DNA from: Azospirillum thermophilum
GTDB taxonomy: Bacteria; Pseudomonadota; Alphaproteobacteria; Azospirillales; Azospirillaceae
Length of the DNA: 64,000 bases
Assembly (NCBI RefSeq): GCF_003130795.1
Contig: NZ_CP029354.1
Location: forward strand, 186,001-250,000
Direction of reading: 5' to 3'
A program made the position numbers and the translations under genes. Positions 12,914 to 52,560 of this stretch are shown one piece after another (position 1 is the stretch's first letter; the number at the start of each line of letters is the position of its first letter). The notes under the pieces are model-generated. The model made no database searches. It was not told the DNA's origin and worked only from the letters and a program-made list of their open reading frames with translations.

Positions 12914-12939
12914 CGGTTTTTACGCCGGTTTAAACCGGG
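12914..12939 (+). promoter_or_regulatory. tandem flagellar regulatory motif, flagellin gene
   Basis: CGGTTTTTAC (12914-12923) is followed by CGGTTTAAAC (12926-12935) and CGGG. It is one of seven tandem CGG-TTTAAA-type sites at flagellar operon heads. It ends about 117 bp before the flagellin start. Confidence 0.55.
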
Positions 12940-13055
12940 TCGGTCACAGTTTCCCTGCCGACAGCGCGCCCGTGAGACATGATGCGGCGGGAAGGCCCGC
13001 GCAGATCGGCCCCGGCGTCAGAAAGGCGCTCTGCATCTCACGAACGGAGATACAC

Positions 13056-14498
13056 ATGGCCTCGATTCTGACCAACTCCTCGGCGATGACCGCGCTGCAG
13101 ACCCTGCGCCGCGTGACGGAAGACCTGGCGACCACCCAGGACCGTATCTCGACCGGCCTGAAGGTCAACAACGCCAAGGAAAACGCCGCCTACTGGTCGA
13201 TCGCCACCACCATGCGTGCTGACGTCGCCGGCTTCAAGGCGGTGAAGGAGTCGCTGGAGCTGGGCACCGGCACCACCAACACCGCGTCGGTGGCCTCCAA
13301 GAACATCGTCGAGAACCTGCGGACCCTGAAGGCCCGCGTCATCGCCGGCCAGACCAACGGCGTCGACAAGTCGCTCATCCAGAACGACATCGACGAGCTG
13401 GTCAAGCTGGTCAAGGGTGCTGCCGCCGACGCGTCGTTCAACGGCGACAACCTGCTGCGCGTCTCCTACTCGAACGACGGTTCCGCGAAGGACCTCGGCG
13501 TCCAGATCCTGGCGTCCCTGAGCCGCAACGGCAACACGGTCGACCCGTCCTACATCTCCTTCCAGCGTCAGGACATGCAGGTCACCTCGATCATTGGCAA
13601 GGCCAAGATCGAGCAGCAGCTCGACTCGACCAACGCGCTGAAGGCGACCCAGACCTTCGACATCGGCGATGTGGGCAAGACCTTCATCGAAGGCCAGAAC
13701 CTTGGCCTGGGCAAGATGACCTTCTCGTTCACCACCGAGAAGATCAAGACCCCGTCGAACGTCGAAGTCGCTGCGCAGACGGTCAACGTCGAAGTCGACC
13801 TGTCCAACATCACCTACGACGACACCCGTGCCCACACCGAGCAGCGCATCACCGACCGCATCAACTACGCGGCCGCCAAGGCGGTGTACGACAAGCTCAG
13901 CGCCACGCTCCCGGCCGGTGACGTGGCTGCCGTCCTGGGCGCTGCCGCTCCGACCATCGGCAACGCCGGCGCGAACGACCTGACCCTGGTTTCGGCCGGC
14001 GGCTACACCGCCCCGACCATCGACCCGCTGCTGAAGGCCCTGTCCCCGACCGTGTCCTTCGGCACGGGCGCCGACACCGGCAAGCTGTCCTTCACCGTCG
14101 GTGCCGGCTTCACCGACGCCAGCAGCTTTACCGCGGGGGTCAAGAACCTCTGGGTGTCCAGCAGGGAGAGCGATGCGTTCGGTGGTCTCGCCGATCTGAC
14201 CCAGATCGACGTCGTCAACAACGCCGAGCAGTCTCTGGTCGCCATCAACTCCCTGCTCGACAAGGCGATCGGCAAGTCGGCGGTGATCGGCTCGATCGAG
14301 AACCGCGTGTCGGTGCAGAACGACTTCGTGTCGAAGCTGACCGACGCCATGAACCGCGGTATCGGCGCCCTGGTGGACGCCGACATGAACGAGGAATCGA
14401 GCCGCCTGCAGGCCCTCCAGGTCCAGCAGCAGCTCGCGACCCAGGCGCTCTCGATCGCCAACCAGGGCCCGCAGAACATCCTGTCGCTGTTCCGCTAA
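13056..14498 (+). CDS. fliC: flagellin, lateral (Laf1-like)
   Basis: The filament subunit, 480 residues. The conserved N-terminal D0/D1 helices start SILTNSSAMTALQTL and contain ISTGLKVNNAKENAAYWSIA. The C-terminal D0 helix reads LQALQVQQQLATQALSIANQ and ends NILSLFR. The centre (about 170-390) is the variable surface domain rich in Thr, Ala and Val. ATG 13056 is preferred over earlier in-frame starts because ACGGAGA lies 5 nt upstream and flagellins have no leader. It is followed by a strong terminator and then flaF-flbT, so it is monocistronic. The overall cluster content suggests lateral rather than polar flagella; that point is an inference. Codon choice looks highly biased (CTG, ACC, AAG), as expected for an abundant protein. 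Confidence 0.95.
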   Translation: MASILTNSSAMTALQTLRRVTEDLATTQDRISTGLKVNNAKENAAYWSIATTMRADVAGFKAVKESLELGTGTTNTASVASKNIVENLRTLKARVIAGQTNGVDKSLIQNDIDELVKLVKGAAADASFNGDNLLRVSYSNDGSAKDLGVQILASLSRNGNTVDPSYISFQRQDMQVTSIIGKAKIEQQLDSTNALKATQTFDIGDVGKTFIEGQNLGLGKMTFSFTTEKIKTPSNVEVAAQTVNVEVDLSNITYDDTRAHTEQRITDRINYAAAKAVYDKLSATLPAGDVAAVLGAAAPTIGNAGANDLTLVSAGGYTAPTIDPLLKALSPTVSFGTGADTGKLSFTVGAGFTDASSFTAGVKNLWVSSRESDAFGGLADLTQIDVVNNAEQSLVAINSLLDKAIGKSAVIGSIENRVSVQNDFVSKLTDAMNRGIGALVDADMNEESSRLQALQVQQQLATQALSIANQGPQNILSLFR

Positions 14499-14506
14499 GG
14501 CCTTGA

Positions 14507-14540
14507 GGGATCGGCGCCGGCGCGCACCGGCGCCGATCCC
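14507..14540 (+). terminator. flagellin terminator
   Basis: A perfect 14-bp stem, GGGATCGGCGCCGG (14507-14520) and CCGGCGCCGATCCC (14527-14540), with a 6-nt loop, followed by the pyrimidine-rich CTTCTTCGTT. It begins 8 nt after the flagellin stop. Confidence 0.82.
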
Positions 14541-14671
14541 CTTCTTCGTTCATTCGGGCGCCCCCATCGCCGCCGCCCGCTGCCTTGCCGTCCGCACTCC
14601 GGCCACGGCCCGGACCGTCGCCCGCGCCGCAGGTCCCTTCCAGTGTTCCTTCCCCATTGCAAGGTGCGACC

Positions 14672-15061
14672 ATGAGCATCGCCGCCTACCAGCAGACCAT
14701 CACCGAGTGCGAAGATCCCCGCCGGATCGAGTACCGGGTCTTTCTGCGCATCACGCTGGACCTCGAAGCCAACCGCGATGCCGACTGGCGGTCCGCCGCG
14801 CTCAAGGACGCCCTGTGGCGGAACCTGGAACTCTGGAACACGCTGCGCGCCGACCTGCTGGAGGAGGACAACGCCCTTCCCGAGGACCTTCGGGCCGGGC
14901 TGGTCTCGCTCTCCTTCTCGGTCGACCGCCACACCCGGCGGGTGCTGCGCGGCGAGGCGGACGTAAAGCTTCTCATCGACATCAACCGTGCCGTCATGCA
15001 GGGGTTGCAGGGGGTGCCGCAGCCTGCCGCACCAGCCCTGGAGGTCGTTCATGGCGCTTAA
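14672..15061 (+). CDS. flaF: flagellar biosynthesis regulator FlaF
   Basis: A 129-residue FlaF protein: YQQTITECEDPRRIEYRVF near the N-terminus, a central LWNTLRADLLEEDNALP and VDRHTRRVLRGE, all typical of the family. In alphaproteobacteria FlaF is needed for flagellin production and works with FlbT, replacing the FliS/FliD logic of enterics. ATG 14672 follows AAGGTG by 5 nt; the longer frame from 14585 adds only Pro/Ser-rich residues. The 3' end overlaps flbT by 11 bp, indicating coupled translation. Confidence 0.92.
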   Translation: MSIAAYQQTITECEDPRRIEYRVFLRITLDLEANRDADWRSAALKDALWRNLELWNTLRADLLEEDNALPEDLRAGLVSLSFSVDRHTRRVLRGEADVKLLIDINRAVMQGLQGVPQPAAPALEVVHGA

Positions 15062-15485
15062 GCTCCGCCTCAAACCCTGTGAACGCGTGGTGATCAACGG
15101 CTGCGTTCTGCAGAACGACAACCGTCGCCACACCCTGACGGTCAGCAACTTCGCCCACATCATCCGCGGCAGCGACATCATGCAGGAGGAGGAGGCGGAC
15201 ACCCCCGTCCGTCGCGCCTACTTCGTGATCCAGAGCATGCTGCTCGACCCTGGTGCGGCGGAGCAGTACAGCAGCATCATCACCGGCATCATGGCGAAGC
15301 TCTACAACGCCTTCGTCCATCCGGAGATGCAGGACCGCATCATGCAGGCGATGCAGAACGTCAGCGAGCGCGACTACTACAAGGCGCTCGCCTGCCTGCG
15401 GCCGGTGATGCAGTACGAGGAGACGGTGCTCGACGGCGCCAAGCGGCGCCACGATGCCATGGACGAACCCCGCGTGGGAGGATGA
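15051..15485 (+). CDS. flbT: flagellin synthesis repressor FlbT
   Basis: A 144-residue FlbT protein. It starts ALKLRLKPCERVVINGCVL and has the hallmark NDNRR, a central AYFVIQSMLLDP and a helical C-terminus (DRIMQAMQNVSERDYYKAL). FlbT binds the flagellin mRNA leader and controls its stability according to hook assembly in Caulobacter; here the target would be the flagellin leader at about 12940-13055. It is encoded between flaF and a FlaG-like gene, in an operon of short overlaps. Confidence 0.93.
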   Translation: MALKLRLKPCERVVINGCVLQNDNRRHTLTVSNFAHIIRGSDIMQEEEADTPVRRAYFVIQSMLLDPGAAEQYSSIITGIMAKLYNAFVHPEMQDRIMQAMQNVSERDYYKALACLRPVMQYEETVLDGAKRRHDAMDEPRVGG

Positions 15486-15489
15486 TGCC

Positions 15490-16673: not shown

Positions 16674-16701
16674 TCCTGCGGACGCGCCACCCCGGGAGAG
16701 C

Positions 16702-17805: not shown

Positions 17806-17834
17806 CCGTTACCCCCAGTGACCGCTGCAGCTGC

Positions 17835-17854
17835 CCGCTTTTTCGCCAAAGCGG
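17835..17854. repeat. inverted repeat after the flaF operon
   Basis: CCGCTTT (17835-17841) and AAAGCGG (17848-17854) form a 7-bp stem with a 6-nt loop, 30 bp after the stop of the preceding gene. There is no T-run on the + strand. It could be a weak terminator, or a variant of the flagellar CCGCTTTAAAG half-site, as it shares CCGCTTT. Confidence 0.35.
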
Positions 17855-18015
17855 AGCCGTTGCCCCGTAATTGCAGATAGTCCACCGGGAACATTTCCCA
17901 CTTCGCCGCCGCGGCCACGCAGAAGCGTTAACAGTCTGTCCACCCCGCAGCCCCCTGCTTATTTTGGCGTCACGTAACCGTCACACAACAGTCATAAAAC
18001 GGGGAGGCTCGCGCC

Positions 18016-18729: not shown

Positions 18730-18754
18730 CGACGGCTCCGGTCCCGCTCGCCCT

Positions 18755-19499: not shown

Positions 19500-20846
19500 T
19501 TAGGCCGGCGCGTCGGCCGGAAGGCTGGACAGGATCTGCTCCAGCAGGTGAAAGGACTCCGCCGGCGCGGTGGTGTCGTCCTTGCCCTGGCGCAGGAAAT
19601 CCTCGAGGTGGGGGTGCAGGAGCACGGCGGCGTCCACTTCCGGATCGGCACCCTTCTTGTACGCGCCGAGCCGTACCAGCTCGCGCATGTTCTCGAAGGT
19701 GACGGCCAGCCGGCGGGCCGTGGTCACCAGCCGGTTCTCTTCGGCGGAGTGGCAGCCGGGCATGGTGCGCGACACGCTGCGCAGGATGTTGACGGCGGGA
19801 TAGCGCCCGGTCTCGGCGATCTTGCGGTCGAGCACCATGTGCCCGTCCAGGATGCCGCGCACCGCGTCGGCGATCGGCTCGTCATGGTCGTCGCCGTCCA
19901 CCAGCACCGTGAAGATGCCGGTGATGTCGCCCGGGCTGTCGGCGTTGCCGGGGCCGGCGCGTTCCAGCAGGCGCGGCAGTTCGGCGAAGACACTCGGCGG
20001 ATAGCTCTTGGTGGTCGGCGGTTCCCCGGCGGCCAGCCCGATCTCGCGCTGGGCCATGGCGAATCGCGTCACGCTGTCGATCAGGCACAGCACATGCTGG
20101 CCCTGGTCGCGCAGTTCCTCCGCCACCGTCATGCAGAGATAGGCCGCCTGGCGGCGCATCAGCGGCGGCTCGTCGGAGGTCGCCACGATGACGACGGAGC
20201 GGGCCAGCCCGTCCTCCCCCAGATCGTCCTGGATGAACTCCTGCACCTCGCGTCCGCGCTCGCCCACCAGGCCTATGACGATGGCGTCGGCGTTGGCGTG
20301 GCGGGCCAGCATCGACAGCAGGGTCGATTTGCCCACGCCCGATCCCGCGAAGACGCCGAGGCGCTGGCCGCGGCAGACCGGCACGAAGGCGTCCATGGCG
20401 CGCACGCCGGTGGCGATCTTGCCGCCGACCCGGCGGCGGGCGCAGGCGGCGGGCGGGCCGGCCCGCAGCGGGCGCGGATGCTCGCCGTTGCGCAGCGGTC
20501 CCTTGCCGTCCACCGGCTGGCCCAGCGCGTTGACGACGCGGCCGAGCCAGCCGCGGCCGGGGCGCAGGGTGAAGGCGGTGTCGTCGGTGACGGCGGCGCA
20601 GCCCTCCGCCACCCCTTCCAGATTGTCGAAGGCCATCAGCAGGGACCGGCCGTTGCGGAACCCGATGGTCTCGCACAGCAGCCGGCCGCCGCGCGTCGTC
20701 TCGGCATAGCATTTGTCGCCGACCGCCAGCGCCCGCTGCAGCCCGTCCACCTCCAGCGTCATGCCGACGGCGGTGCGGATGGTGCCGCGCAGGCTGCGCG
20801 TCGGCATCCGTTCGATCTCCGCCAGCAGGTTCGAGAGTACGCGCAT
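19500..20846 (-). CDS. fliI: flagellar export ATPase FliI
   Basis: The hexameric ATPase of the flagellar type III export gate, 448 residues. Visible motifs are Walker A in GVFAGSGVGKSTLLSMLARH, GLVGERGREVQEFI, the Walker B strand CLIDSVTRFAMAQREIGL, and PPSVFAELPRLLERAG followed by GDITGIFTVLVDGDDHDEPIAD, all diagnostic of FliI/YscN. The first 90 residues form the beta-barrel domain. It is divergent from flgB; the 111-bp spacer contains a tandem regulatory motif that could serve both. One uncharacterised gene follows it; fliJ was not recognised. Confidence 0.95.
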   Translation of the reverse strand: MRVLSNLLAEIERMPTRSLRGTIRTAVGMTLEVDGLQRALAVGDKCYAETTRGGRLLCETIGFRNGRSLLMAFDNLEGVAEGCAAVTDDTAFTLRPGRGWLGRVVNALGQPVDGKGPLRNGEHPRPLRAGPPAACARRRVGGKIATGVRAMDAFVPVCRGQRLGVFAGSGVGKSTLLSMLARHANADAIVIGLVGERGREVQEFIQDDLGEDGLARSVVIVATSDEPPLMRRQAAYLCMTVAEELRDQGQHVLCLIDSVTRFAMAQREIGLAAGEPPTTKSYPPSVFAELPRLLERAGPGNADSPGDITGIFTVLVDGDDHDEPIADAVRGILDGHMVLDRKIAETGRYPAVNILRSVSRTMPGCHSAEENRLVTTARRLAVTFENMRELVRLGAYKKGADPEVDAAVLLHPHLEDFLRQGKDDTTAPAESFHLLEQILSSLPADAPA

Positions 20847-20891
20847 CTGGGGCCTTTCCGGTCAGGTCGGAACCCCCCGACCCTAGCCCGG

Positions 20892-20914
20892 CCGATTTAA
20901 ATCCGGTTTTAAAC
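20892..20914. promoter_or_regulatory. tandem flagellar regulatory motif, fliI/flgB spacer
   Basis: CCGATTTAAAT (20892-20902) abuts CCGGTTTTAAAC (20903-20914), giving an exact 11-bp repeat step. It lies 44 bp before flgB and 46 bp before fliI, so one site may drive both directions. Confidence 0.6.
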
Positions 20915-20957
20915 GGGCACGATCATCTTGGCCTTGTTTTCGGGGAGAGCCGATAAG

Positions 20958-21350
20958 ATGGATTTTAGCAATATTTCCGTGTTCCGGCTGGCCGGCGCCC
21001 GCCTCGATTACTTGGCGGAGCGGCAGAGGCTGATCGCCGAGAACGTCGTCAACGCCAACACGCCGGATTACCAGGCGAAGGACCTGAAGCCCTTCGAATC
21101 CCTGATGAACGGCCAGCGCCCGGTCACTCCGTCGCGGACCAGCTCCATGCATCTGGCCGGGCTGCGGCCGGCCGGCTCCGCCCAGGAGGCCCGCCGCCCC
21201 GACCAGTGGGAGGTGACGCCCGACGGCAACTCCGTCTCGCTGGAGCAGGAGATGAACAAGGGCAGCGAGACCCGCGACGCCTTCTCGCTGACCGCCGGCG
21301 TCTTCCAACGCAACGTCCAGATGCTGCGCGCCGCCTGGCGCGTCGGCTGA
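20958..21350 (+). CDS. flgB: flagellar proximal rod protein FlgB
   Basis: A 130-residue rod subunit. The N-terminal rod signature is FRLAGARLDYLAERQRLIAE then NVVNANTPDYQAKD, and the C-terminal helix is TAGVFQRNVQMLRAAWRVG, typical of FlgB. ATG 20958 is chosen over a TTG at 20928 because it keeps the family N-terminus and has GGGGAG 10 nt upstream. It is first in flgB-flgC-fliE-fliQ-transglycosylase-flhA-fliR-flhB. It lacks a signal peptide, as expected for a type III export substrate. Confidence 0.93.
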   Translation: MDFSNISVFRLAGARLDYLAERQRLIAENVVNANTPDYQAKDLKPFESLMNGQRPVTPSRTSSMHLAGLRPAGSAQEARRPDQWEVTPDGNSVSLEQEMNKGSETRDAFSLTAGVFQRNVQMLRAAWRVG

Positions 21351-23322: not shown

Positions 23323-23346
23323 CGGCGTAAAAGCCGGTTTTACCGG
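23323..23346 (+). promoter_or_regulatory. tandem flagellar regulatory motif upstream of flhA
   Basis: CGGCGTAAAAG (23323-23333) abuts CCGGTTTTACCGG (23334-23346). It is a weaker match, because TTTTAC replaces TTTAAA. It lies 59 bp before flhA, suggesting a second promoter inside the flgB operon. Confidence 0.45.
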
Positions 23347-23404
23347 GCCGGCCTAGCATGGCCCGCGTGTCCTCCCGACGTCTTGCCCCTGGAGCAGCGC
23401 CGAC

Positions 23405-25498
23405 ATGAGCTTTACCGGCACCTTCCGGACCCGGATGACCAACCTCGGCGACCTGGGGCTGGCCAACCGCGACGTGCTGTTCGCCATCGGCATCCTGCTG
23501 GTGCTGGGTGTCCTGTTCCTGCCGGTCCCGAACTGGTTCCTCGACCTCGGCCTCGCGCTGTCGCTGTCGGTCAGCGTGCTGATCCTGATGGTCTCGCTGT
23601 GGATCGCCAAGCCGCTGGACTTCTCGTCCTTCCCGACCGTGCTGCTGGTGGTGACGGTGCTGCGGCTGGCGCTGAACATCGCGTCGACCCGCCTGATCCT
23701 CAGCCAGGGCCACACCGGCCCGTCGGCCGCCGGCCATGTGATCGAGGGTTTCAGCCGCTTCATCATGGGCGGCAACTTCGTCATCGGCGTGGTGATCTTC
23801 GCCATCCTGATCGTCATCAACTTCGTGGTGATCACCAAGGGCGCCACCCGCATCGCCGAGGTGGGCGCCCGCTTCACGCTGGACGCCATCCCCGGCAAGC
23901 AGATGGCGATCGACGCCGACCTGTCCGCCGGCATGATCGACGACGTCGAGGCCCGCCGCCGCCGCAAGGAGCTGGAGGACGAGAGTACCTTCTTCGGCGC
24001 CATGGACGGTGCGTCGAAGTTCGTGCGCGGCGATGCGGTCGCCGGCCTCGTCATCACCTTCATCAACGTGCTGGGCGGCATGGCGATCGGCATCGCCCAG
24101 CAGGGCATGTCCTTCGAGGCGGCGGCATCGGTCTACACCATCCTGACGGTGGGCGACGGGCTGGCGACGCAGATCCCGGCGCTGGTGGTGTCGCTCGCCG
24201 CCGGCCTCCTGGTCACCAAGGGCGGCAACGTCGGTTCGGCCGACCAGGCGGTGCTGCAGCAGCTCGGCGGCTATCCCAAGGCGCTGATGGTGGCGGGCGG
24301 CCTGCTGGCGCTGCTGGCGATGACCCCCGGCCTGCCGCTCGGCCCCTTCCTGTTCCTCGGCGCCACCTTCGGGATCGCCGGCTGGTACCTGCCGCGCCAG
24401 CGCGCCAGGCGCACGGCGCTCGCCAAGCTGGAGGAGTCGCGCAAGACCGCCGCCGCCCCGGCGGAAGAGGCGGTGGAGGACATGCTGAAGGTGGACGACG
24501 TGAAGGTGGAGGTCGGCAACCACCTCGTCCCGCTGATCCTCAACAAGAACGGCCCCCTGACCGGCAAGGTGAAGACGCTGCGCAAGCGCTTCGCCAAGGA
24601 GTTCGGCTTCATCCTGCCGTCGGTCCGTATCAAGGATTCGAGTTTCCTGCCGCCCAAGGGCTATGTGATCAGCGTCATGGGGGTGGAGGTCGCCAGCGGC
24701 GAGGTGCGGCCCAAGCAGCTCCTCGCCATCGATCCCAACGGCGGGAGCGCTCCCGACATCCCGGGCGAGGCGACGCGCGAGCCGACCTTCGGCCTGCAGG
24801 CCAAGTGGATCGACCCGGCCCGCCACGAGGAGGCCGTCGCCAAGGGCTACACCGTCGTCGATCCGGAAAGCGTCATCACCACGCACCTGACCGAGGTGAT
24901 CAAGGACCATCTGCCCAACCTGCTGACCTTCGCGGCGACGCAGAAGCTGATCGACGGGCTGGGGCGGGAGTACCAGAAGCTGATCTCCGACATGGTGCCG
25001 AGCCAGATCACCCTGGTGGTGGTGCAGCGCGTGCTCCAGGCCCTGATGGCGGAGCGCGTGTCGATCCGCAACCTGCCGGCCATCGTCGAGGCGATCGCCG
25101 AGGCGGTGAACTGGACCCGCAACATCACCATGATCACCGAGCATGTGCGCAGCCGCCTGGGCCAGCAGATCTGCCAGGCGCTGACGGCGTCGGACGGCTT
25201 CATGCCGGTGATCGCGCTGACCCCGCGGTGGGAGCAGGCGCTGGTGGAGAGCATCGTGACGGAGGGCGAGGACCGCCGCTTCGCCATGCCGCCCAGCCAG
25301 GTGCAGGAGTTCCTGACCGCCGTGCGCATGTGCATCCAGCGCCATGCCACGCCGCAGGTCTGGCCGGCCCTGCTGGTCGGCGCCGAGGTGCGGCCCTTCG
25401 TCCGCTCCCTGCTGGAACGGGTGAGCCCGATGACACCGGTCATCAGCCACGCCGAACTGCATCGCAAGGTGGCCGTCAAGACCATCGACCAGGTGTGA
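23405..25498 (+). CDS. flhA: flagellar export gate protein FlhA
   Basis: A 697-residue export-gate protein. The N-terminal half has about eight membrane spans. The FHIPEP signature is seen at ATRIAEVGARFTLDAIPGKQ, with FINVLGGMAIGIAQQGMSF nearby. The cytoplasmic nonameric ring domain starts after about residue 330 and shows KEFGFILPSVRIKD and TVVDPESVITTHLTEVIKDH. ATG 23405 is supported by family length and a 5-nt spaced GCGCCGAC-type weak ribosome site. It is followed by fliR after 10 bp. Confidence 0.96.
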   Translation: MSFTGTFRTRMTNLGDLGLANRDVLFAIGILLVLGVLFLPVPNWFLDLGLALSLSVSVLILMVSLWIAKPLDFSSFPTVLLVVTVLRLALNIASTRLILSQGHTGPSAAGHVIEGFSRFIMGGNFVIGVVIFAILIVINFVVITKGATRIAEVGARFTLDAIPGKQMAIDADLSAGMIDDVEARRRRKELEDESTFFGAMDGASKFVRGDAVAGLVITFINVLGGMAIGIAQQGMSFEAAASVYTILTVGDGLATQIPALVVSLAAGLLVTKGGNVGSADQAVLQQLGGYPKALMVAGGLLALLAMTPGLPLGPFLFLGATFGIAGWYLPRQRARRTALAKLEESRKTAAAPAEEAVEDMLKVDDVKVEVGNHLVPLILNKNGPLTGKVKTLRKRFAKEFGFILPSVRIKDSSFLPPKGYVISVMGVEVASGEVRPKQLLAIDPNGGSAPDIPGEATREPTFGLQAKWIDPARHEEAVAKGYTVVDPESVITTHLTEVIKDHLPNLLTFAATQKLIDGLGREYQKLISDMVPSQITLVVVQRVLQALMAERVSIRNLPAIVEAIAEAVNWTRNITMITEHVRSRLGQQICQALTASDGFMPVIALTPRWEQALVESIVTEGEDRRFAMPPSQVQEFLTAVRMCIQRHATPQVWPALLVGAEVRPFVRSLLERVSPMTPVISHAELHRKVAVKTIDQV

Positions 25499-36135: not shown

Positions 36136-37362
36136 TCAGCGCTTCAGCCGCGTCGTCTCTTCCACCATCTCGTCGGTGGTGCGGACGATGGTGGCGTTCG
36201 ACGAATAGGCACGCTGCGTCTCGATCAGCGAGACCAGCTCCTCGGCGATGTCGACGTTGGACTGCTCCAGCGCATAGCCTTCCACCGCCCCGACCGAACC
36301 GCTGTTTCCGGCGGACAGGGACAGAGCGCCGCTGTCGGAGCCCAGCGTGTAGGTGTTGCCGTCCTGGACCTTCAGCCCGTCGGGGTTCACCACGTCGGCC
36401 ACCGGGACCTGGTAGAGCGACTGGCGGGCGCCGTTGTCGTAGATCGCCCACAGCTTGCCGGTCTTGTCGATCTCGACCGTGGTGACCTTGCCGGCCTTGG
36501 CGCCGTCGCCCACCAGCTTCGGCACATAGTCGCCGTTGAACTGGGTCAGGTTCTCCATCCCGACCTTGATGGTGTCGACGCCGTCGGGAGAGGTCACCGT
36601 GATGGTCGGGAGCGCGCCGGTGGGCAGGCCGGCGCTGGGGCCGGTCGCGCCGAAGGTGACGGTCGTCGGCAGGCCGGCGACCGTATAGCCGCCCGTCGCG
36701 GTGCCGTTCAGCGACCACTCGTTGGGGTTGGCGGTCTTCGTCCAGGTCAGCTTGAGGTCCCGCGTATTGCCGAGACCGTCGTAGAATCCCGACGTCGTGT
36801 CGAAGGTGGAGCCGTTGGCGGCCTGGGCCGGCAGGTTGCCGGAGAAGGTCATGGCCGTGGTGCGGCTGCCGCCGTAGGCGAGGTTGCCGACCTTCACCGT
36901 GGTCAGGCTGTCGAAGCTGGACTTGCTCACCGCCGGCAGGCTGCCGTCCGGGTTCAGCTTCCAGCCCTGCAGGTACTGGCCGGCGCTGTTGCGCAGATAT
37001 CCTTCGTCGTCCGGCAGGAAGCTGCCGGCGCGCGTCAGGCCGAAGGTCGGCGCGCCGTCGGCGGCCGTCGACTTGTTGGCGATGACGAAGAAGCCGCGCC
37101 CGCCGATCGCCATGTCGGTCGAGGACTGGGTTCCCTGGATGGTTCCGTCCTTCTGCACCTGATAGTGCACGTTGGACTGCACGCCGCCGGCCGAATAGGT
37201 CGTGGTCGAACCGGAGCCGGTCACCAGCGTGGAGAAATCGACGGCCGCGCGCTTGTAGCCCACCGTCGCGGAGTTGCTGATGTTGTCCGAGATGGCGGCC
37301 AACCGCGAGCTTTGCGCGGACATGCCGCTGACACCGGACCGCATGGCGCTGAACAGGCTCAT
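36136..37362 (-). CDS. flgE: flagellar hook protein FlgE
   Basis: A 408-residue hook subunit. The N-terminus is SLFSAMRSGVSGMSAQSSRL with AISDNISNSATVGYKRAAVD. The next motif is MAIGGRGFFVI, and the C-terminus is NVDIAEELVSLIETQRAYSSN with VRTTDEMVEETTRLKR. Two FlaE-type domains lie between. It is first in the flgE-K-L-I-J-N operon, 87 bp downstream of a clear tandem regulatory motif. Confidence 0.95.
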   Translation of the reverse strand: MSLFSAMRSGVSGMSAQSSRLAAISDNISNSATVGYKRAAVDFSTLVTGSGSTTTYSAGGVQSNVHYQVQKDGTIQGTQSSTDMAIGGRGFFVIANKSTAADGAPTFGLTRAGSFLPDDEGYLRNSAGQYLQGWKLNPDGSLPAVSKSSFDSLTTVKVGNLAYGGSRTTAMTFSGNLPAQAANGSTFDTTSGFYDGLGNTRDLKLTWTKTANPNEWSLNGTATGGYTVAGLPTTVTFGATGPSAGLPTGALPTITVTSPDGVDTIKVGMENLTQFNGDYVPKLVGDGAKAGKVTTVEIDKTGKLWAIYDNGARQSLYQVPVADVVNPDGLKVQDGNTYTLGSDSGALSLSAGNSGSVGAVEGYALEQSNVDIAEELVSLIETQRAYSSNATIVRTTDEMVEETTRLKR

Positions 37363-37448
37363 CGAGGGATCCTCTTGTCACGACTGGGGAACGAAGGGGA
37401 AGTCCCGGGATTCTCCACGATGGACTTGATGCTCGGACAGTACAGATG

Positions 37449-37500
37449 CCGCTTTAAAGGCGGTTTAAAGGGAAAACCCGGCAATTCATGCCGGTTTTTA
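37449..37500 (-). promoter_or_regulatory. tandem flagellar regulatory motif upstream of flgE
   Basis: On the + strand, CCGCTTTAAAG (37449-37459) abuts GCGGTTTAAAG (37460-37470) in an exact 11-bp step, the cleanest copy in the window. A third related block, CCGGTTTTTA, is at 37491-37500. The flgE start is 87 bp away. The half-site is nearly palindromic, so the reading strand is not certain. Confidence 0.62.
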
Positions 37501-37609
37501 TGCAGATTCGCCTTGTCTCCGCATCGCCGGGATTCCCGGCCCGCCGTCGATGGACGCTCACACCGCTTTCGAGGTATGCTGCAATCCAACGAGCCCGCAC
37601 GGTGACGCC

Positions 37610-38044
37610 ATGGACGAGTTGAAGCCCCTGCTCCTCCAGCTTCTGACCAAGGTCGACGTCATCCAGTCGGATGTCACCGGCCTCAAGGCGGATGTGGCCG
37701 AACTGAAGGCGGATGTCGCGGTGCTGAAGACGGATGTGGCGGAGCTGAAGGCGGATGTGGCGGAGCTGAAGGCGGACGTGGCGGAGCTGAAGGCGGACGT
37801 CGCGGTGCTGAAGGCGGATGTGGCTGAGTTGAAGTCCAACGTCTCGACGCTCAACGCCGATGTCGCCACGCTGAAATCCGACGTCTCCTCGCTGACGGAA
37901 GGGCAGGCCCGCCTGGAGACGGAGGCCCGCCAGATCAAGGAGGTGGTGGGCACCGTCCGCATGCGGGAGATCGCCCGTCTCGACGGCCGGATCGACCAGC
38001 TCGCCCAGGATGTCGCCCTGGGCCGGAGACCGGCCGCCGAGTGA
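37610..38044 (+). CDS. heptad-repeat coiled-coil protein
   Basis: A 144-residue protein built almost entirely of the heptad (E/V)LKADVA, repeated about ten times between residues 22 and 100. It is encoded by near-identical 21-nt repeats (about 37681-37840) that look recently expanded. A long parallel coiled coil is certain from the a/d pattern (Leu/Val). The C-terminus (IREIARLDGRIDQLAQDVAL-like) is also helical. There is no signal or membrane segment. It lies on the opposite strand between flgE and motB and is transcribed toward motB. Function unknown; similar short heptad proteins are common hypotheticals. Confidence 0.72.
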   Translation: MDELKPLLLQLLTKVDVIQSDVTGLKADVAELKADVAVLKTDVAELKADVAELKADVAELKADVAVLKADVAELKSNVSTLNADVATLKSDVSSLTEGQARLETEARQIKEVVGTVRMREIARLDGRIDQLAQDVALGRRPAAE

Positions 38045-39093: not shown

Positions 39094-39983
39094 TCACGCC
39101 ACGGCCTGGCGTCCCTCGCGGGCCTTGGCCTGCGAGGTCAGCGTGGTGGCCACCTCGACCTCGGCGAGGCTCGGCTGGATGTCGGCGAACAGCACCTTGC
39201 GGGCGAACTCCGCGCAGACCTGCGGAGGGCTGCCGCGCAGGTACGCGCCGAGGCCGGCCTTGATGCAGATGTAGAGGTTCAGCTCCGACTCCCGGCGGTG
39301 GCGGGCGGCGCTGGCGATGGGCCGACAAGGCCGTAGGAGAGCAGCACGCCGAGGAAGGTGCCGGTCAGCGCGCCGCCGATCATGCGGCCCAGCACCTCGG
39401 GCGGCTCGCTGATGGCGCTCATCGCGTTGATGACGCCCAGCACCGCCGCGACGATGCCCAGCGCCGGCAGGGCGTCGGCGAGGTTCTGCAGCGCCTTCGG
39501 CACCTGGTTCATCTCGCGGCTTATCGTCTCGATCTCCTCGCTCATCAGCGCTTCCAGATCGTGGGGATTGTCCTGGCCCAGCGCGATCAGCCGGAGGTAG
39601 TCGCACAGGAAGGTCAGGCTGCGCTCGTGGCGGAAGACCGCCGGATACTGGGTGAAGATCGGGCTGTCGCCGGGCTTGTCGATGTCCTGCTCGATCTGCG
39701 AGACGCCCTTGGATTTCGCCACGCGGAGCAGCGCGTAGAGAAGCGAGATCACGTCGAGATAGTCGTTCTTGTTCGATCGGTGGCCGCGGGCGACGAAGCC
39801 CACGGTGCGCACCGTATCGCGCAGCACGCTCGGCGTATTGGCGATGACATAGCCGCCGACGCCGGCGCCGATGATGATCACGATCTCGACGGGTTGCCAC
39901 AGCACGCCCATGCGTCCGCCCATGGCGGCGAAGCCGCCGAGCACGCTCAGGAACACCGCAACGATACCGAACAGCAAACGCAT
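39094..39983 (-). CDS. motA: flagellar stator protein MotA, apparent -1 frameshift near the C-terminus
   Basis: Stator channel protein with four spans. The main frame covers residues 1-222 and includes FAAMGGRMGVLWQPVEIVII, IGAGVGGYVIANTPSV, the cytoplasmic loop with LMSEEIETISREM and the third/fourth spans ADALPALGIVAAVLGVINAM and FLGVLLSYGLVGP. The rest continues in another frame as IASAARHRRESELNLYICIK to the stop at 39094. The join is at 39319-39321, where gene-strand GGCCCATCGCC should be GGCCCCATCGCC. Restored length is about 296 residues, normal for MotA. If the deletion were real the last 74 residues would be lost. Confidence 0.88.
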
Positions 39984-40053
39984 GTCTCTTGTCCTCCGGC
40001 TCGACCGACCTGCCCGGCCTTCCCTTCTGCGGTACGGCTTCGACGGTAGGGGG

Positions 40054-40077
40054 CGGCGATTAAAGCGGCTTTACGGG
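40054..40077 (-). promoter_or_regulatory. tandem flagellar regulatory motif upstream of motA
   Basis: On the + strand CGGCGATTAAAG (40054-40065) abuts CGGCTTTACGGG (40066-40077), a 12-bp step. It overlaps the stop codon of the large TPR gene and lies 71 bp before motA, suggesting motAB has its own promoter. Confidence 0.45.
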
Positions 40078-42605
40078 TTGGCTTTGCGGGACGCCTCGGG
40101 ACCGGCCTGCCAGCGCTGCAGCACGCCGGCCAGCGCGTCGGCCGCGGCGAGCTGGCGCGTCACCTCGGCGGCGGCGAGCGGCTTGTTGCCGGCGGGCGGA
40201 ATGGCCAGCGCCTCCAGCAGGCCCTGCCAGCGGGTGCCGGCCAGCCGGGCGCGGTGGCGTTCGGCCGTGGCGTTGACCGCCTCCTGGTCGCCGGCGCGGA
40301 AGGCGGCGAGCGCCTGATAGGCGATGTCGTCGGGGCCGCCGTTGCCCTGGTCGACCAGTTCGGCGAAGGCGGCGCGGGCGGCCGTCCACTCGCCGGCGCG
40401 GAACAGGCTCTGCGCCCGGATGCGGCCGGCCTCCGGACCGGCGATGCCGCGCAGCGAATCGATGGCGCGCATCGCGTCGCCGTCCGTGGCGAAGGCCTCC
40501 GCCCGCAGCAGGGCGCGGCGCTCCGCCAGCGCCGGTTCCAGCGCCGAACCGGCGGTGCTGCCCAGCACCTCCAGCGCCTCGCCGGCCCGCCCGCTGTCGA
40601 GCAGCACGCGCGCCAGCTCCAGCCCGATCTCCGTCCGGCGGGTGCCGCGGGCCTCCTCGGCCAGCGCATGCAGAAGGCGCGAGGCCTCCAGCACATAGCC
40701 GTCGCGCGCCAGGATGCGCGCCAGGCGCCGCTGCTGCGTCGCCTCCTCGTCGTCCATCTGCGCGATGGCGCGGCCGTGGCGCACCTGCAGCGCCAGCGAG
40801 TCGAGCGCGCCCGGCCTGGTCTGTTCCAGCCGGTCCATCACCACCATCAGCAGGCTGCGCCCGGCGGAAAGCGCCGTGCGGCCGCGCGCGGTGGCACCGA
40901 AGCGCCGGCCGAGCACGCCGAACAGCTCCAGCGCCTGTTCGGTCTTGCCGACGCGGGTGTAGGCCTCGCCCAGCGCCGCCAGCGCATCGGTTTCCACATC
41001 GTCGCCGCGCCAGGCGAAGCGCAGCGCCTCCAGTTCCGCGATCGTTCCGGCGTCGTCGAGCGCGCCGGACATGCGGCGCAGCTCGATGGAACGGATCTTG
41101 GCGCGATGGCCGTAGAGGCCCGGCGCCTGCGCGGCCTTCTGGTAGCGCTCCAGCGCCGCCGCCGGCTCGTTCTGCAGCTCGCCCAGTCGGCCGCGGAAAT
41201 AGTCGATCCGCCCGTCGGCGCTGTTCGGCCCGTCCAGCGTGATCATTTCCAGCACGATCATGTTCAGCGAGGCCGCGTCGAACACGCCCGCCGCCTCGGC
41301 CAGCAGGGTCAGCAGCCGGGCGCGCAGGTCGGGCGGGTAGTCCAGCAGCCGCTTCAGCACGATCGGCAGGCCCTCCTTCGCGGCGGACCAGCGGGCGGGT
41401 GCCAGGGTGGCGCTGCGCCAGACATGGTGATCGGGGGCGGCGCCGGGCGGGGTGCGGACGAAGATGCTGTCCTGCGGATCGGCGGTGCCGTCCAGCGCGC
41501 GGAAGGCGTCGGCGAGGATGCGCAGCTCATAGCGCTGGTCGGGGGCCGGGTCGTGGCTGTCGGCGGCATCGAGGGCGGCGCGGCCTTCCTCCGACATCGC
41601 GCGGGCCAGAGCGAATCGCGCCATGGCGATCAGCGCATCGACGCGCGCCCGTCCGCTCGACATGGTGATCGCCTGCTCCAGCGCCTGCTTGCGGGCGACA
41701 TAGTCGGTGCCGGCCCAGGCCGTCAGGTCGAAGGGACGCAGCGGCGGCGGTTCCGGCTGCGCCGGGGCCGTGACCGTGGCCTTCGGCGGAGCGGCCGGCT
41801 TGTCGGTCTGCTGCAGCTTCCTGATCGTCTGGTCCACGCTCTGCCGCACCGACTGCTCCAGCGTGTCGGGTGCCGGCGCCGTCGTCTTCACCGGGATTGC
41901 CATGGCCGGCGGCTGTGCCGGGGGCGGAGCCGGCTGAGCGGCCGGGGCGGGCTGCGGGGCCGGCTGCTGCGCCTGCGGAGGCTGCGGCGCCGGGGGGCGC
42001 AGGGGGATCGGCTGGGCCTGGGCGCTGGCGATCGGGGCGAAGGCCGCCGCGATCTCTTCCCCCAGGGACGGGCCGGGGCCGGGCGCCGCCGGGTTCTGGG
42101 CTGCCGCACTCTGGGCTGCCGCACTCTGGGCCACCTGCTCGGCCTGCGGGTCCTCCGCGGGGGCCTCGGCGACCGGCGGCGCGTCCTCGAACATGAAGGG
42201 CGGCGGTTCCGGCTTGTAGCCGGGCACCGGCGGCCCGGCCACGTCGATCATGGTGATGTTTCGTTCGCGCAGGGTCCGGACGCGCGCGCCGCAGCTCCAT
42301 TCCAGGGAGAAGCCCTTGCCGTCCTCGGCGATCTGGAAGCCGGTCATCCGCTTCGAATAGGCGGCGGCGATCTCCTCGGCCGGCCAGGCCGCGGGCTTGG
42401 CGAGGCTGATGCGTCCGCCGCAGGGTCCGATCTCCACCTCCGGCTCCTCGCGCGCATTCACCAGCGCCAGCCGCGAGAAGTCGGCATGGTCGCCGATCTG
42501 CAGCTTCACCGGCGTCCTGGCCGATGCCGCCAATGCCGGCAGCGCCGTGGTCATCATCAGCAGCGCGATCATGGCGGAGAAGCGCCGGTCCTTGCAGGGA
42601 TACAT
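40071..42605 (-). CDS. large exported TPR-like protein of the flagellar cluster
   Basis: An 844-residue protein. A signal peptide (MIALLMMTTALPALA) ends near residue 26. An AMIN/SPOR-like N-domain follows, with VKLQIGDHADFSRLALVNAR, and then a long Pro/Ala/Gln linker (about 130-270). The C-terminal 500 residues are helical repeats resembling TPR: ARVDALIAMARFALARAMSE, DALAALGEAYTRVGKTEQAL then ELFGVLGRRF, and YQALAAFRAGDQEAVNATAE. The layout resembles periplasmic TPR proteins next to mot genes in alphaproteobacteria (MotC of Sinorhizobium is a periplasmic partner of MotB, but I see no clear homology). It lies upstream of motA and divergent from flgF. Confidence 0.68.
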   Translation of the reverse strand: MYPCKDRRFSAMIALLMMTTALPALAASARTPVKLQIGDHADFSRLALVNAREEPEVEIGPCGGRISLAKPAAWPAEEIAAAYSKRMTGFQIAEDGKGFSLEWSCGARVRTLRERNITMIDVAGPPVPGYKPEPPPFMFEDAPPVAEAPAEDPQAEQVAQSAAAQSAAAQNPAAPGPGPSLGEEIAAAFAPIASAQAQPIPLRPPAPQPPQAQQPAPQPAPAAQPAPPPAQPPAMAIPVKTTAPAPDTLEQSVRQSVDQTIRKLQQTDKPAAPPKATVTAPAQPEPPPLRPFDLTAWAGTDYVARKQALEQAITMSSGRARVDALIAMARFALARAMSEEGRAALDAADSHDPAPDQRYELRILADAFRALDGTADPQDSIFVRTPPGAAPDHHVWRSATLAPARWSAAKEGLPIVLKRLLDYPPDLRARLLTLLAEAAGVFDAASLNMIVLEMITLDGPNSADGRIDYFRGRLGELQNEPAAALERYQKAAQAPGLYGHRAKIRSIELRRMSGALDDAGTIAELEALRFAWRGDDVETDALAALGEAYTRVGKTEQALELFGVLGRRFGATARGRTALSAGRSLLMVVMDRLEQTRPGALDSLALQVRHGRAIAQMDDEEATQQRRLARILARDGYVLEASRLLHALAEEARGTRRTEIGLELARVLLDSGRAGEALEVLGSTAGSALEPALAERRALLRAEAFATDGDAMRAIDSLRGIAGPEAGRIRAQSLFRAGEWTAARAAFAELVDQGNGGPDDIAYQALAAFRAGDQEAVNATAERHRARLAGTRWQGLLEALAIPPAGNKPLAAAEVTRQLAAADALAGVLQRWQAGPEASRKANP

Positions 42606-42679: not shown

Positions 42680-42702
42680 CAGGTTGAAACCCGGCTTTAA
42701 AC
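42680..42702. promoter_or_regulatory. tandem flagellar regulatory motif, flgF / TPR-gene spacer
   Basis: CAGGTTGAAAC (42680-42690) abuts CCGGCTTTAAAC (42691-42702) in an 11-bp step. It lies 47 bp before flgF and 75 bp before the divergent TPR gene, so it may serve both. Confidence 0.55.
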
Positions 42703-42748
42703 TGCATCGCCTAGGTTAAGGCCACGTTCAAACTCCAGGTGCTCGGCG

Positions 42749-43480
42749 ATGGAAAATCCCATTTACATTGGATTGTCGCGACAAGTGGCGCTGCGCCGGC
42801 AGCTTGAGGTGATCGCGAACAACGTCGCCAACATGAATACAGCCGGATTCCGGGCGGAGCGCACGCTGTTCGAGGCGGCGATGGAACGCGGCGGGCGCAA
42901 GCCCAGCGATCAGGTCGCCTTCACGATCGACCGCGCCACCTATACCGACATGCGCTCCGGCAGCCTCGCGCCGACCAACAATCCCTACGACGTGGCGCTC
43001 GACGGCGACGGCTGGCTGCAGGTGCGCACCCCCGACGGCGTGCGCTACACCCGCGACGGCCGGATGCGGCGCGACATGGACGGGCAGCTCGTCAACGCCA
43101 GCGGCCACCCCTATCTCGACGACAACCAGCAGCCGATCGTCATTCCTTCGGACCGCACCGTCGTCTCCATCGGCTCGGACGGGCTGATATCGGCCGACAA
43201 CGAGATGCTGGCCCGGCTGCGCGTCGCCCGCTTCACCAACACGCAGGCCCTGCGCCAGACCGGCGACGTCCTGTTCGCCGCCGATCCCGGCGCCGAACCG
43301 CTGCCCGCCCCGAACACCCGGGTCATCCAGGGCAAGCTGGAACAATCGAACGTCCAGAGCATCGCCGAGGTCACGCGGATGATGGATCTGACCCGCGACT
43401 ACCAGGCGGTCACCCGCATGGTGGACGAAGGGCAGGAGCTGATGCGCTCCGCCATCAACCGCCTCGGCAAGTCGTCCTAA
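42749..43480 (+). CDS. flgF: flagellar rod protein FlgF
   Basis: A 243-residue proximal-rod protein. IYIGLSRQVALRRQLEVIAN then NVANMNTAGFRAERTLFEAA is the rod signature. The middle has YDVALDGDGWLQV (FlgF/FlgG family GxGFF site) and the C-terminus LEQSNVQSIAEVTRMMDLTR with DYQAVTRMVD. It is first in flgF-G-A-H-FliL-like and is followed by flgG after 15 bp. Confidence 0.93.
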   Translation: MENPIYIGLSRQVALRRQLEVIANNVANMNTAGFRAERTLFEAAMERGGRKPSDQVAFTIDRATYTDMRSGSLAPTNNPYDVALDGDGWLQVRTPDGVRYTRDGRMRRDMDGQLVNASGHPYLDDNQQPIVIPSDRTVVSIGSDGLISADNEMLARLRVARFTNTQALRQTGDVLFAADPGAEPLPAPNTRVIQGKLEQSNVQSIAEVTRMMDLTRDYQAVTRMVDEGQELMRSAINRLGKSS

Positions 43481-47192: not shown

Positions 47193-47219
47193 CGGCGCGG
47201 AGCGCCCGAGGCAGGAGGG

Positions 47220-47927: not shown

Positions 47928-47942
47928 CGGTGATCCTTGCGT

Positions 47943-49409: not shown

Positions 49410-49427
49410 TCTGGGGCCGGTCTCCGC

Positions 49428-50162: not shown

Positions 50163-50165
50163 GGC

Positions 50166-50893
50166 TCAGGCTCCCGATCCGACGGTGCGCAGCCGCGCAT
50201 AGAAGGCGCTCGCCGCGACCTGCTGGCGCGCTCCGTCCGCATCCTCCGCGGCGTCCGCCTCCGCCTCCGCGCGGGGGCGGGCCGGCTCTTCGCCCTCGGA
50301 ACGGACGAGGGAGACGAAGGGGCGGAATCCGCTTCCCTCCGCCGGTGCCTCGGGGGCGCATCCGCCGGCTGGGCGGGCTGCGCCGCCCTGGGGTCCTCGA
50401 CCGGCGCCGGCCGGGGCTCTGCCGCCGGTCTGGCCGGGAGCGGCGTTGCGGTCAGCGGTGCGGCCGGCGCCGGCGCGGCCTCGCCGCCGTCCTCGTCGAA
50501 CAGCGACAGCGGCATGCCGCTGCGCGGCGTGCGGGTGCGCGGCATCGGCGCCTCGTCCAGCCGCCGCGCCAGGGCGCGGGCCTGGTGGACGGACTCCTCG
50601 ATGCGGCGGGCGGTGCGCTCGCAGGAGCCGAGCAGAAGCCCGATCTCCTCCTTCATGACCTTGCCGCGGTCCAGCTCGTCGGCCAGCTTGGCGGAGATCT
50701 CGGTGGCGGCGGCGGCCAGCCGCTTTACCGAGGCGTCCGTCTCGTCGATCGTCCGGGAGAAGGTGGTGATCAGGCCGTTGATCTCCGCCTGCCCGGACTT
50801 CAGGACGCGCAGGCGCTTGTTGACGATCACCAGGAACACCGTGGCGGTGACCAGCATCACCGCCAGCACGGCATCAATGAGAAAGGAGACCAT
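50166..50893 (-). CDS. DUF6468-type flagellar membrane protein, apparent -1 frameshift
   Basis: The N-terminus has one membrane span (FLIDAVLAVMLVTATVFLVI) followed by the domain NKRLRVLKSGQAEINGLITT and ADELDRGKVMKEEIGLLLGS, typical of DUF6468, a small flagellar-locus family. In the published frame the last 65 residues are Arg/Pro/Ser noise. If one base is added near 50350-50356 (gene strand CCCCCGAGG to CCCCCGGAGG), the frame becomes SGFRPFVSLVRSEGEE ... ASAFYARLRTVGSGA and stops at 50166-50168, 3 bp before motE's start. That ending looks genuine. The restored protein is about 242 residues. It overlaps fliM by 20 bp. Confidence 0.75.
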
Positions 50894-51914
50894 CGATCAG
50901 CTCCTGCTTCGTCTCCAGGTCCGTCTCGATCTTGACGGCGATGTTGTCGTTGCGCTGGCCCATGTGGCCGGCGAACAGCGGCGTCGTCTTGCTCAGCAGC
51001 ATCACCGGGTTGTCCGGGTCGATGCGCAGCTTCAGCGACGTGCCCTTCTGCCAGTTCAGCACCTCGCCCAGCGGCACCTGCGTCTCGTGCAGTACGGCCG
51101 TCAGGTCCAGCTTGGTGCGCATCAGCTCGTTCTTCAGGTGGGTTTCCCACACCGTGTCATGGCCGAACTTCTCGCCCATGAACATCTGCACCAGCTTGCC
51201 GCGCACCGGCTCCAGCGTCGCGTAGGGGATCACCACCTCGGCATGGCCGACGCGGCGCTCCACCTCGATCGCCACGCGCACGCGGATGACCGCGTTGGTC
51301 CCGCGGGTGATGGTGGCGAACTGCGGGTTGACCTCCAGCCGGTCGAAGGTGAAGTCGACCTGCGCCAGCGGGTCGAAGGACTGGCCGAGGTCCTGCAGGA
51401 TGACGCGGATCAGCCGCTCGGTCATCTTGCGCTCGATGGAGGTGTAGGCGCGCCCGTCGATCCGGCCCGGCCGGCTGCGCCGCCCGCCCAGCAGGACGTC
51501 CATCATGCAGTAGATCAGCGCGCTGTCGACCGACACGACGATCTGGTTGTCCCACTGCTCGGCCCGGGCGACGCCGATCAGCGCCGGCAGCTCGATCGTG
51601 TCGAGGAATTCGTTGTAGCGCAGCCAGTCGATCCGCAGCAGCGACGCTTCGACGTTGGTCGACGAGAACTGCCGCAGCGAGGTGTTCAGCAGCCGCACCA
51701 TCCGGTCGAAGACCACGTCCAGCATCGGCAGACGGTCCTTGTTGACCGTCGTGGAGCTGATCAGCCGCTCGATGGCGCCGGGCTGGTTGGGTTCGTGCTG
51801 GGGTGCGTCGAAGTTCAGGAGGCGGTCGATCTCCTCCTGGCTCAGGGTCTTGGTGTCGGTCATGAAGTCGCCCATACCCTCGTCTTTGCCCGCGCTGTCG
51901 CTGGGATCGCTCAT
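50874..51914 (-). CDS. fliM: flagellar motor switch protein FliM
   Basis: A 346-residue C-ring protein that binds CheY-P. The N-terminal LSQEEIDRLLNFD is the CheY-binding segment, preceded by about 20 extra residues. The middle domain has AIERLISSTTVNKDRLPMLD, FDRMVRLLNTSLRQFSSTNV and DSALIYCMMDVLLGGRRS (GGxG motif). The C-terminal SpoA domain (QVPLGEVLNWQKGTSLKLRI) pairs with FliN. It overlaps the DUF6468 gene by 20 bp. Confidence 0.95.
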   Translation of the reverse strand: MSDPSDSAGKDEGMGDFMTDTKTLSQEEIDRLLNFDAPQHEPNQPGAIERLISSTTVNKDRLPMLDVVFDRMVRLLNTSLRQFSSTNVEASLLRIDWLRYNEFLDTIELPALIGVARAEQWDNQIVVSVDSALIYCMMDVLLGGRRSRPGRIDGRAYTSIERKMTERLIRVILQDLGQSFDPLAQVDFTFDRLEVNPQFATITRGTNAVIRVRVAIEVERRVGHAEVVIPYATLEPVRGKLVQMFMGEKFGHDTVWETHLKNELMRTKLDLTAVLHETQVPLGEVLNWQKGTSLKLRIDPDNPVMLLSKTTPLFAGHMGQRNDNIAVKIETDLETKQELIDGLLSH

Positions 51915-51942
51915 GAATGCCTCCGAGTGTCTTCGCGGGCCG

Positions 51943-52452
51943 CTACTGCGTAAGAAGGCTGCGCAGCAGGACGTCGATGACGGCGTCCCGGCCGATGATC
52001 AGGTTGAAGCGGCGGCGCAGCTCGGTGCGCAGCCGGTAAAGCCCGTTGGATCCCTGCAGGTCGTGCTGGTCGATGTTGCGCAGGAACTCCTGCTGGGCAT
52101 CCACCAGATAGGGCAGCACGCTTTCCACCCGCGCCCGGTCCTGCGGCGCGATGGACAGCGTGATGCCGATCTTCAGGTAGCGCGACGGGGTGTCGAGGCG
52201 CAGGTTGACGATCACTTCCGGCAGGTCGAGCGTCACCTGCGGGCGCTCCACCTCGTGCGACGGCGTGAAGAGCGCAAGCACCCGGTCGGTGCCGACGGCC
52301 ATCCAGTATCCGCCGATCCCGGCCGCGATCACCCCTGCGAGCACCGCGAGGCCAAGGGTCAGACGGGCGAGCGGCAGCACGACGACAAGCACCCGGCGGC
52401 CAGCCAGCAATCTGGAAAGAACTGCTCGCGCCCCCTCGGCGTCTGTATTCAT
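51943..52452 (-). CDS. fliL: flagellar basal body-associated protein FliL
   Basis: A 169-residue protein with one membrane span (LTLGLAVLAGVIAAGIGGYW). The periplasmic domain has DLPEVIVNLRLDTPSRYLKI, then GITLSIAPQDRARVESVLPY and FLRNIDQHDLQGSNGLYRLR. The final INVLLR-type helix VIDVLLRSLLTQ is the FliL C-terminus. ATG 52452 is chosen over a TTG at 52470; AGAGGACA lies 7-10 nt upstream. It is first in the leftward operon and divergent from fliF. Confidence 0.92.
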   Translation of the reverse strand: MNTDAEGARAVLSRLLAGRRVLVVVLPLARLTLGLAVLAGVIAAGIGGYWMAVGTDRVLALFTPSHEVERPQVTLDLPEVIVNLRLDTPSRYLKIGITLSIAPQDRARVESVLPYLVDAQQEFLRNIDQHDLQGSNGLYRLRTELRRRFNLIIGRDAVIDVLLRSLLTQ

Positions 52453-52538
52453 CGCGCGTGTCCTCTTCAAAATCTCAAAAATTTGAGCAAAGAACCGAAA
52501 CCATCAAAGTTTATCCACTTCCCGGTGGCCCGATCGTT

Positions 52539-52560
52539 CCGCTTTTACTCCGCTTAAAAG
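52539..52560. promoter_or_regulatory. tandem flagellar regulatory motif, fliL/fliF spacer
   Basis: CCGCTTTTACT (52539-52549) abuts CCGCTTAAAAG (52550-52560) in an exact 11-bp step. It lies 80 bp before fliF and 87 bp before fliL. A single site therefore sits between the two longest flagellar operons in the window. Confidence 0.58.

Follow-up and report, generated by a model that had tools for sequence, protein, structure and literature searches.

Here, we found that a flagellar gene cluster of Azospirillum thermophilum carries, at the heads of its operons, seven boxes made of two tandem half-sites, and we consider it likely that these boxes are activator sites for the regulon of a second, most likely lateral, set of flagella, with the protein encoded at 58904 as their binder. 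The cluster, recognised with profile models, lies in a window of 64,000 nucleotides (G000:C3:186001-250000) from a genome of 6.78 Mb in 9 contigs; positions given without a contig are those of this window. A sequence-only reading had placed tandem half-sites, 11 or 12 bp apart, before seven sets of flagellar genes, and direct reading of the window confirmed the boxes at these places. All seven fit a single register with an 11-bp step, with 0-2 mismatches to KTDWAMNCCGSYTWWAM:

12914..12934, + strand: flagellin box, gene start at 13056; 0 mismatches; lies 113-121 bp ahead of the start in 11 genomes of the genus
20892..20912, + strand: box common to the divergent fliI (19500-20846, -) and flgB (20958-21350, +); 0 mismatches
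23323..23343, + strand: flhA box, before flhA (23405-25498); 0 mismatches
37449..37469, - strand: flgE box, before flgE (36136-37362, -); 1 mismatch
40054..40074, - strand: motA box, before motA (39279-39983, -); 2 mismatches, the weakest of the seven
42680..42700, + strand: box between flgF (42749-43480, +) and a divergent TPR-like gene (40071-42605, -); 0 mismatches
52539..52559, + strand: box between fliF (52640-54370, +) and the divergent fliL (51943-52470, -); 0 mismatches

Aligned on CCG, the boxes share the register KTDWAM-N-CCGSYTWWAM, in which the T and A positions return after 11 bp. The fliI/flgB box is also free of mismatches in 9 of 9 genus relatives examined. The motA box, earlier read as part of a spacer, in fact overlaps the 3' end of the TPR gene.

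Are the boxes kept at the same heads in related genomes? A tblastn search of the window and 13 further genomes located the orthologues of ten head genes, and up to 300 bp upstream of each were taken, with Sulfitobacter excluded from the counts. A box with at most 2 mismatches was present in 111 of 115 head regions, in 80 of them without any mismatch (101 of 105 regions when the window is excluded), compared with 2 of 99 control upstream regions of nine internal genes and 51 of 2100 Markov-randomised heads, the latter being a first-order Markov sample and not an exact dinucleotide shuffle. These counts give no probability, because divergent heads were counted twice and the genomes are related. 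The internal-gene match with 0 mismatches (FlgI in G065) is the box standing before the regulator gene of that genome. The distance from box to gene start is nearly fixed, i.e. 48-49 bp for flgF (10 of 10 genus genomes) and 79-81 bp for fliF (11 of 11). Within the genus, motA has no box in A. brasilense, G011 and G029 (4, 4 and 3 mismatches). In several genomes, e.g. G002, G004 and G005, the flgF/TPR gap holds another match at a distance of 31 bp, possibly for the TPR-motA direction. A scan of Sulfitobacter loci did not find the box, and reading Sulfitobacter and Roseivivax heads by eye did not show it either; its carry-over to roseobacters was rejected on these grounds.

The boxes are scarce elsewhere in the genome. 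The 21-base pattern CNGNNTDWAMNCCGSYTTWAM occurs without mismatch at 4 places, all in the cluster, and with 1 mismatch at 3 places, 2 of them in the cluster. Matches at up to 1 mismatch are nearly confined to the cluster (6 of 7 places), as the check proposed with the sequence-only reading would have it, but not wholly, as one place lies outside. With 2 mismatches allowed, 20 forward and 21 reverse matches were counted, against 22 and 18 for the reversed pattern; as these totals equal the control, the two-mismatch tail is background, and we rejected its places as regulon members. Since CNGNNTDWAMNCCGSYTTWAM was drawn from the boxes themselves, only its scarcity elsewhere is informative. A further pattern, TTTWAANNCCGGTTTWAA, gave 9 matches at up to 2 mismatches, at four cluster boxes and 2 other places, and its reversed control gave 0. 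A less circular test than an own-site pattern is a matrix built from relatives only. The best distinct places in the window by this matrix were six boxes (20891, 12913, 42679, 52538, 37448 and 23322), at 33.3 to 18.1 bits, while the motA box (40054) lay outside the best 20 places listed. In own-genome stretches outside the window (225 kb, many of them chosen as pattern matches in the first place), the best place reached 19.9 bits, above the flhA box.

The genome holds a second fliF on another contig (C5:406415; 41% identity over 473 aa to the window fliF), whose system we take as that of the polar flagellum, and the 60 kb around it contain no box match at up to 1 mismatch. Plasmids of Azospirillum sp. 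B510, A. ramasamyi, A. lipoferum and A. brasilense carry orthologous clusters, and the window cluster most likely makes the lateral flagella of Azospirillum. We use this label because the system is a second, variably present one and because A. brasilense is known for both types, with one polar flagellum and several lateral flagella (PMC8429497). Reported flagellin sizes are 300-400 aa for lateral and 600-800 aa for polar flagella (PMC8429497); the window flagellin, at about 480 aa, falls between them, and we dropped flagellin length as an argument for the lateral type.

The sequence-only reading missed an element resembling a -10 hexamer, (T/C)ANNNT, that stands 9-11 nt past each box in at least one direction:

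12945..12950, + strand: flagellin, CACAGT, 10 nt past the box
20880..20885, - strand: fliI, TAGGGT, 10 nt past the box in the fliI direction
20924..20929, + strand: flgB, CATCTT, 11 nt past the box
23354..23359, + strand: flhA, TAGCAT, 10 nt past the box
37437..37442, - strand: flgE, TACTGT, 11 nt past the box
40043..40048, - strand: motA, TACCGT, 9 nt past the box
42712..42717, + strand: flgF, TAGGTT, 11 nt past the box
52570..52575, + strand: fliF, TAGCGT, 10 nt past the box

For flagellin, flgB, flhA, flgF and fliF in 11 genus genomes, the element begins 10 or 11 nt past the box at 48 of 48 heads, counting boxes on the gene's strand and excluding four flhA heads with their best match on the other strand. 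For the remaining directions it was found at 10 nt in 10 of 10 cases for fliI, at 10-11 nt in 9 of 9 for flgE, and at 9 nt in 6 of the 7 genomes having a box at motA. At the TPR/flgF and fliL/fliF boxes, which had been assigned to both neighbours, it occurs at the fixed place only towards flgF and fliF. Counted direction by direction, the seven boxes therefore appear to serve eight promoters, those of flagellin, fliI, flgB, flhA, flgE, motA, flgF and fliF.

If, as is likely, these hexamers are -10 elements, the layout would be an activator geometry with a sigma-70-type -10. We propose that an OmpR/PhoB-type dimer binds the two 11-bp half-sites, which are CCG-N-TTTAAA-like and stand head to tail. 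Such a dimer would cover the -35 region, because the second half-site ends 9-11 nt before the (T/C)ANNNT element, and would bring in, by class II activation, RNA polymerase carrying a housekeeping-type sigma factor. The most likely binder would be the 58904 protein, a Rem-group orphan regulator that lacks the phospho-acceptor Asp. In the pho box of PhoB, two direct repeats of 11 bp likewise take the place of the -35 and stand about 10 nt ahead of the -10; the lateral box resembles the pho box in layout, the differences being the half-site sequence and the phosphorylation of PhoB.

Could an alternative sigma factor (sigma-54, ECF41 of the extracytoplasmic function (ECF) type, or sigma-28) instead recognise the box as its promoter? 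The sequence-only reading held this to be the main other explanation, and it now seems very improbable. In a scan of 100 heads against base shuffles, using consensus strings, e.g. TGGCAC-N5-TTGCW for sigma-54, the sigma-54 and ECF41 strings fitted no better than the shuffles (means of 3.88 vs 3.49 and 3.41 vs 3.12 mismatches), while the sigma-28-like string was slightly better (4.37 vs 4.82). In addition, no half-site stands at the usual spacing of 16-18 nt from the -10. In favour of a sigma factor, rpoN and the ECF gene rpoE10 have been reported as needed for, or regulating, lateral flagella in A. brasilense (PMC12826043).

Three places outside the cluster were considered as possible regulon sites. 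Two were rejected: C2:70307 lies inside open reading frames (ORFs), and C5:520204 has no -10 at the fixed distance. The box at the third, C7:17909 (L199:2919-3459), has TATCGT 10 nt past it and lies about 50 bp upstream of an Ala-rich ORF of 146 aa. No homologue of this ORF was found in the other 44 genomes of the genus (E <= 1e-4); it is a possible regulon member on another contig.

The candidate binder is encoded within the cluster, after fliG:

58904..59731, + strand: Asp-less OmpR/PhoB-type regulator, candidate binder of the boxes (PF00486; tree; structure model)

Its orthologues adjoin flagellin in B510 and A. lipoferum. A. brasilense carries two very similar regulator copies about 190 kb apart (L096:47220-47999 and L101:293-1087), while one copy was found in A. 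lipoferum 4B. In favour of the 58904 protein as binder, a box without mismatch lies about 150 bp upstream of the regulator gene itself in A. brasilense (copy 1), G011, G029 and G033. PF00486, the OmpR-type winged-helix C-terminal domain, is its sole Pfam match (74.6 bits), and its best profile is the CtrA model, far below the cut-off (134 vs 350 bits). The AlphaFold model shows a receiver and a winged helix at a mean predicted local distance difference test score (pLDDT) of 87.2, and among its neighbours in structure are PmrA bound to DNA (4s04) and 2hqr, an orphan that is independent of phosphorylation. The receiver has no phospho-acceptor Asp, with Gly where CtrA has D51. In a tree of 27 rows, which excludes two own-genome OmpR rows and one duplicate Rem, a branch with 100/100 support separates the 58904 family, roseobacter flagellar-cluster regulators, Rem of S. 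meliloti and a Phyllobacterium relative from CtrA and three other OmpR proteins. The Rem side is a clade if these three are the outgroup; within it, the long Rem branch is only weakly placed (80/50). The names Rem, for a protein recorded as 'response regulator' with a place in the fla cluster, and FtcR-like, for the Phyllobacterium relative, are ones that we presume from gene place. The phospho-acceptor Asp is lost in 18 of 18 Rem-side rows (G, A or S) and kept in 9 of 9 others.

The regulator is present in 34 of 45 genus genomes, and its presence largely goes with that of the box. A 17-base pattern occurs without mismatch at least 2 times in 33 of the 34 genus genomes with the regulator and in 4 of the 11 others (Fisher p 5e-5); in the rest of the family the same test gave 7 of 9 with and 3 of 28 without (p 3e-4). 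In the four genus exceptions (G006, G020, G040, G044), the regulator gene runs off contig ends with 20-41 residues left, the drafts G006 and G020 keeping remnants of both copies and G040 and G044 of one, and therefore it is probably present there. The other seven regulator-less genus genomes have no lateral-type fliF, and the exact pattern occurs 0 times in six of them and once in G030. Conversely, G024 and G057 hold the regulator without exact matches and without lateral fliF (in G057 no fliF was found). Their regulator genes lie at L174 (G024:C41) and L175 (G057:C84), the G024 copy beside sdhA/sdhB-like ORFs. A class-wide search for the regulator in 385 genomes at E <= 1e-42 returned only the own genome, the cut-off being too strict to be informative. 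The idea of one regulon of structural operons is supported by conservation at the heads, by near-confinement to the cluster, by the missing match near the other fliF and by co-occurrence with the 58904 gene.

A rival that the sequence-only reading did not name is the genome's own CtrA, encoded by a separate gene (C5:855437) and keeping Asp51, whose site TTAA-N7-TTAA has the same 11-bp step. The boxes would then be CtrA sites, and CtrA would drive the operons directly, as for fla2 in Rhodobacter sphaeroides; we consider this unlikely. CtrA is the main rival because its recognition helix (PELKIIDVFVCKLRKK) is nearly identical to that of 58904 (PLDKVIDVYICKLRKK). In its favour, too, one of the seven boxes, that of flgE, matches TTAA-N7-TTAA exactly, CtrA drives the divergent fliL2/fliF2 and flgB2/fliI2 promoters in R. 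sphaeroides (PMC6180460), and a full CtrA site at -39 activates P2 of Caulobacter ctrA (PMC4287350). However, six of the seven boxes are not exact TTAA-N7-TTAA, and of the 31 exact places listed, one belongs to the cluster and 4 carry a central CCG. This comparison is weak, as the 31 places are not established CtrA sites: at up to 1 mismatch the reversed control gives more matches (204 vs 143 per strand). CtrA-level matches also exist in relatives without boxes, although those relatives are also without lateral-type fliF. The two systems share the 11-bp step, a site near -35 and a nearly identical recognition helix, and they differ in the CCG block and TTTA/TAAA variants of the lateral box and in the Asp51, own gene and tree group of CtrA.

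A combination of both seems to us more doubtful still: CtrA would activate the regulator gene, or share some of the boxes, while the regulator would activate the operons. In several relatives, AT-rich tandem half-sites, some with TTAAC, precede the regulator gene at about 150 bp, which would suit such a cascade, but they are degenerate in the window. In the window, the stretch 58700-58760 upstream of 58904 shows TTTA and TTAAC half-sites near -150, like CtrA or a degenerate lateral box.

Besides the nearly identical recognition helix of CtrA and its site with the 11-bp step, the reversed TTAA-N7-TTAA control and the sigma-factor reports, several observations weigh against the 58904 protein acting through these boxes. 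Its own gene has only a weak box match (2 mismatches, 43 bp upstream), and a -10 at the fixed place (9-11 nt) was found in 0 of 8 cases in the TPR direction and in 0 of 11 in the fliL direction. We found no genome that has the cluster and boxes yet lacks the regulator; since all three are mostly present or absent together, their co-occurrence does not tell which protein is the binder. The published FtcR motif from chromatin immunoprecipitation, TGTGGGCA, is unlike the box of the 58904 cluster, and roseobacter homologues of the regulator (about 49% identity, 166-178 aa) sit in flagellar clusters with other repeats, CAAGGATA or CAAGAATA. Finally, the earlier assignment of 58904 to the Rem/FtcR type stands in the tree, which groups it with Rem apart from CtrA, but similarity scores are mixed: BLAST with 58904 as query ranks CtrA (132 bits) above Rem (85 bits); with Rem as query, 58904 scores 96 bits and CtrA 70.5 bits, and 58904 and Rem share about 34% identity over 170 aa.

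Some observations stand beside this argument. Three roseobacter plasmid flagellar clusters with a related Asp-less regulator (L104, L173, L183) show, by eye, repeated CAAGGATA / CAAGAATA at several heads, possibly the own box of that branch. In the window, within 39094-39983 (-), the motA frame gives 234 aa that match the MotA model up to position 223 of 282, and a further MotA-like stretch apparently continues in the overlapping frame 39094-39900, which would mean a broken frame or a sequencing error. Between flgE and motB, an ORF at 37550-38044 contains heptad-like repeats (LKADVAE...); the annotations of B510, A. ramasamyi and A. lipoferum show no counterpart at this place.

How does the system compare with known ones? 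Like 58904, Rem of Sinorhizobium, LafR of Bradyrhizobium and FtcR are orphan OmpR-type proteins encoded in flagellar clusters with an Asp-less receiver, LafR and FtcR by description only. LafR controls lateral flagella, reportedly without need of phosphorylation (PMC8429497). According to the same review, neither visNR nor rem is encoded in A. brasilense, and a sigma-54 box is mentioned (PMC8429497); as regards rem, we found on the contrary that A. brasilense holds two regulator genes of the Rem clade. Among the titles and abstract openings retrieved from open-licence literature, no description of the box or the regulator in Azospirillum was found.

As a tentative idea, which we put forward with less than even confidence, the Asp-less CtrA relative and its box may have diverged together from the CtrA system, the CCG block in each half-site keeping 58904-type proteins off CtrA sites and CtrA off lateral boxes, and the family may re-target its half-site by lineage (CCG-N-TTTAAA in Azospirillaceae, CAAGRATA-like in roseobacters). 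If this is true, two flagellar systems would operate in one cell with insulated regulons. With a Rem-group regulator and boxes ahead of nearly every operon of the second flagellar cluster, the system offers a switch that can be tested directly, and an example of two related regulators that may share out the two kinds of flagella of one cell.

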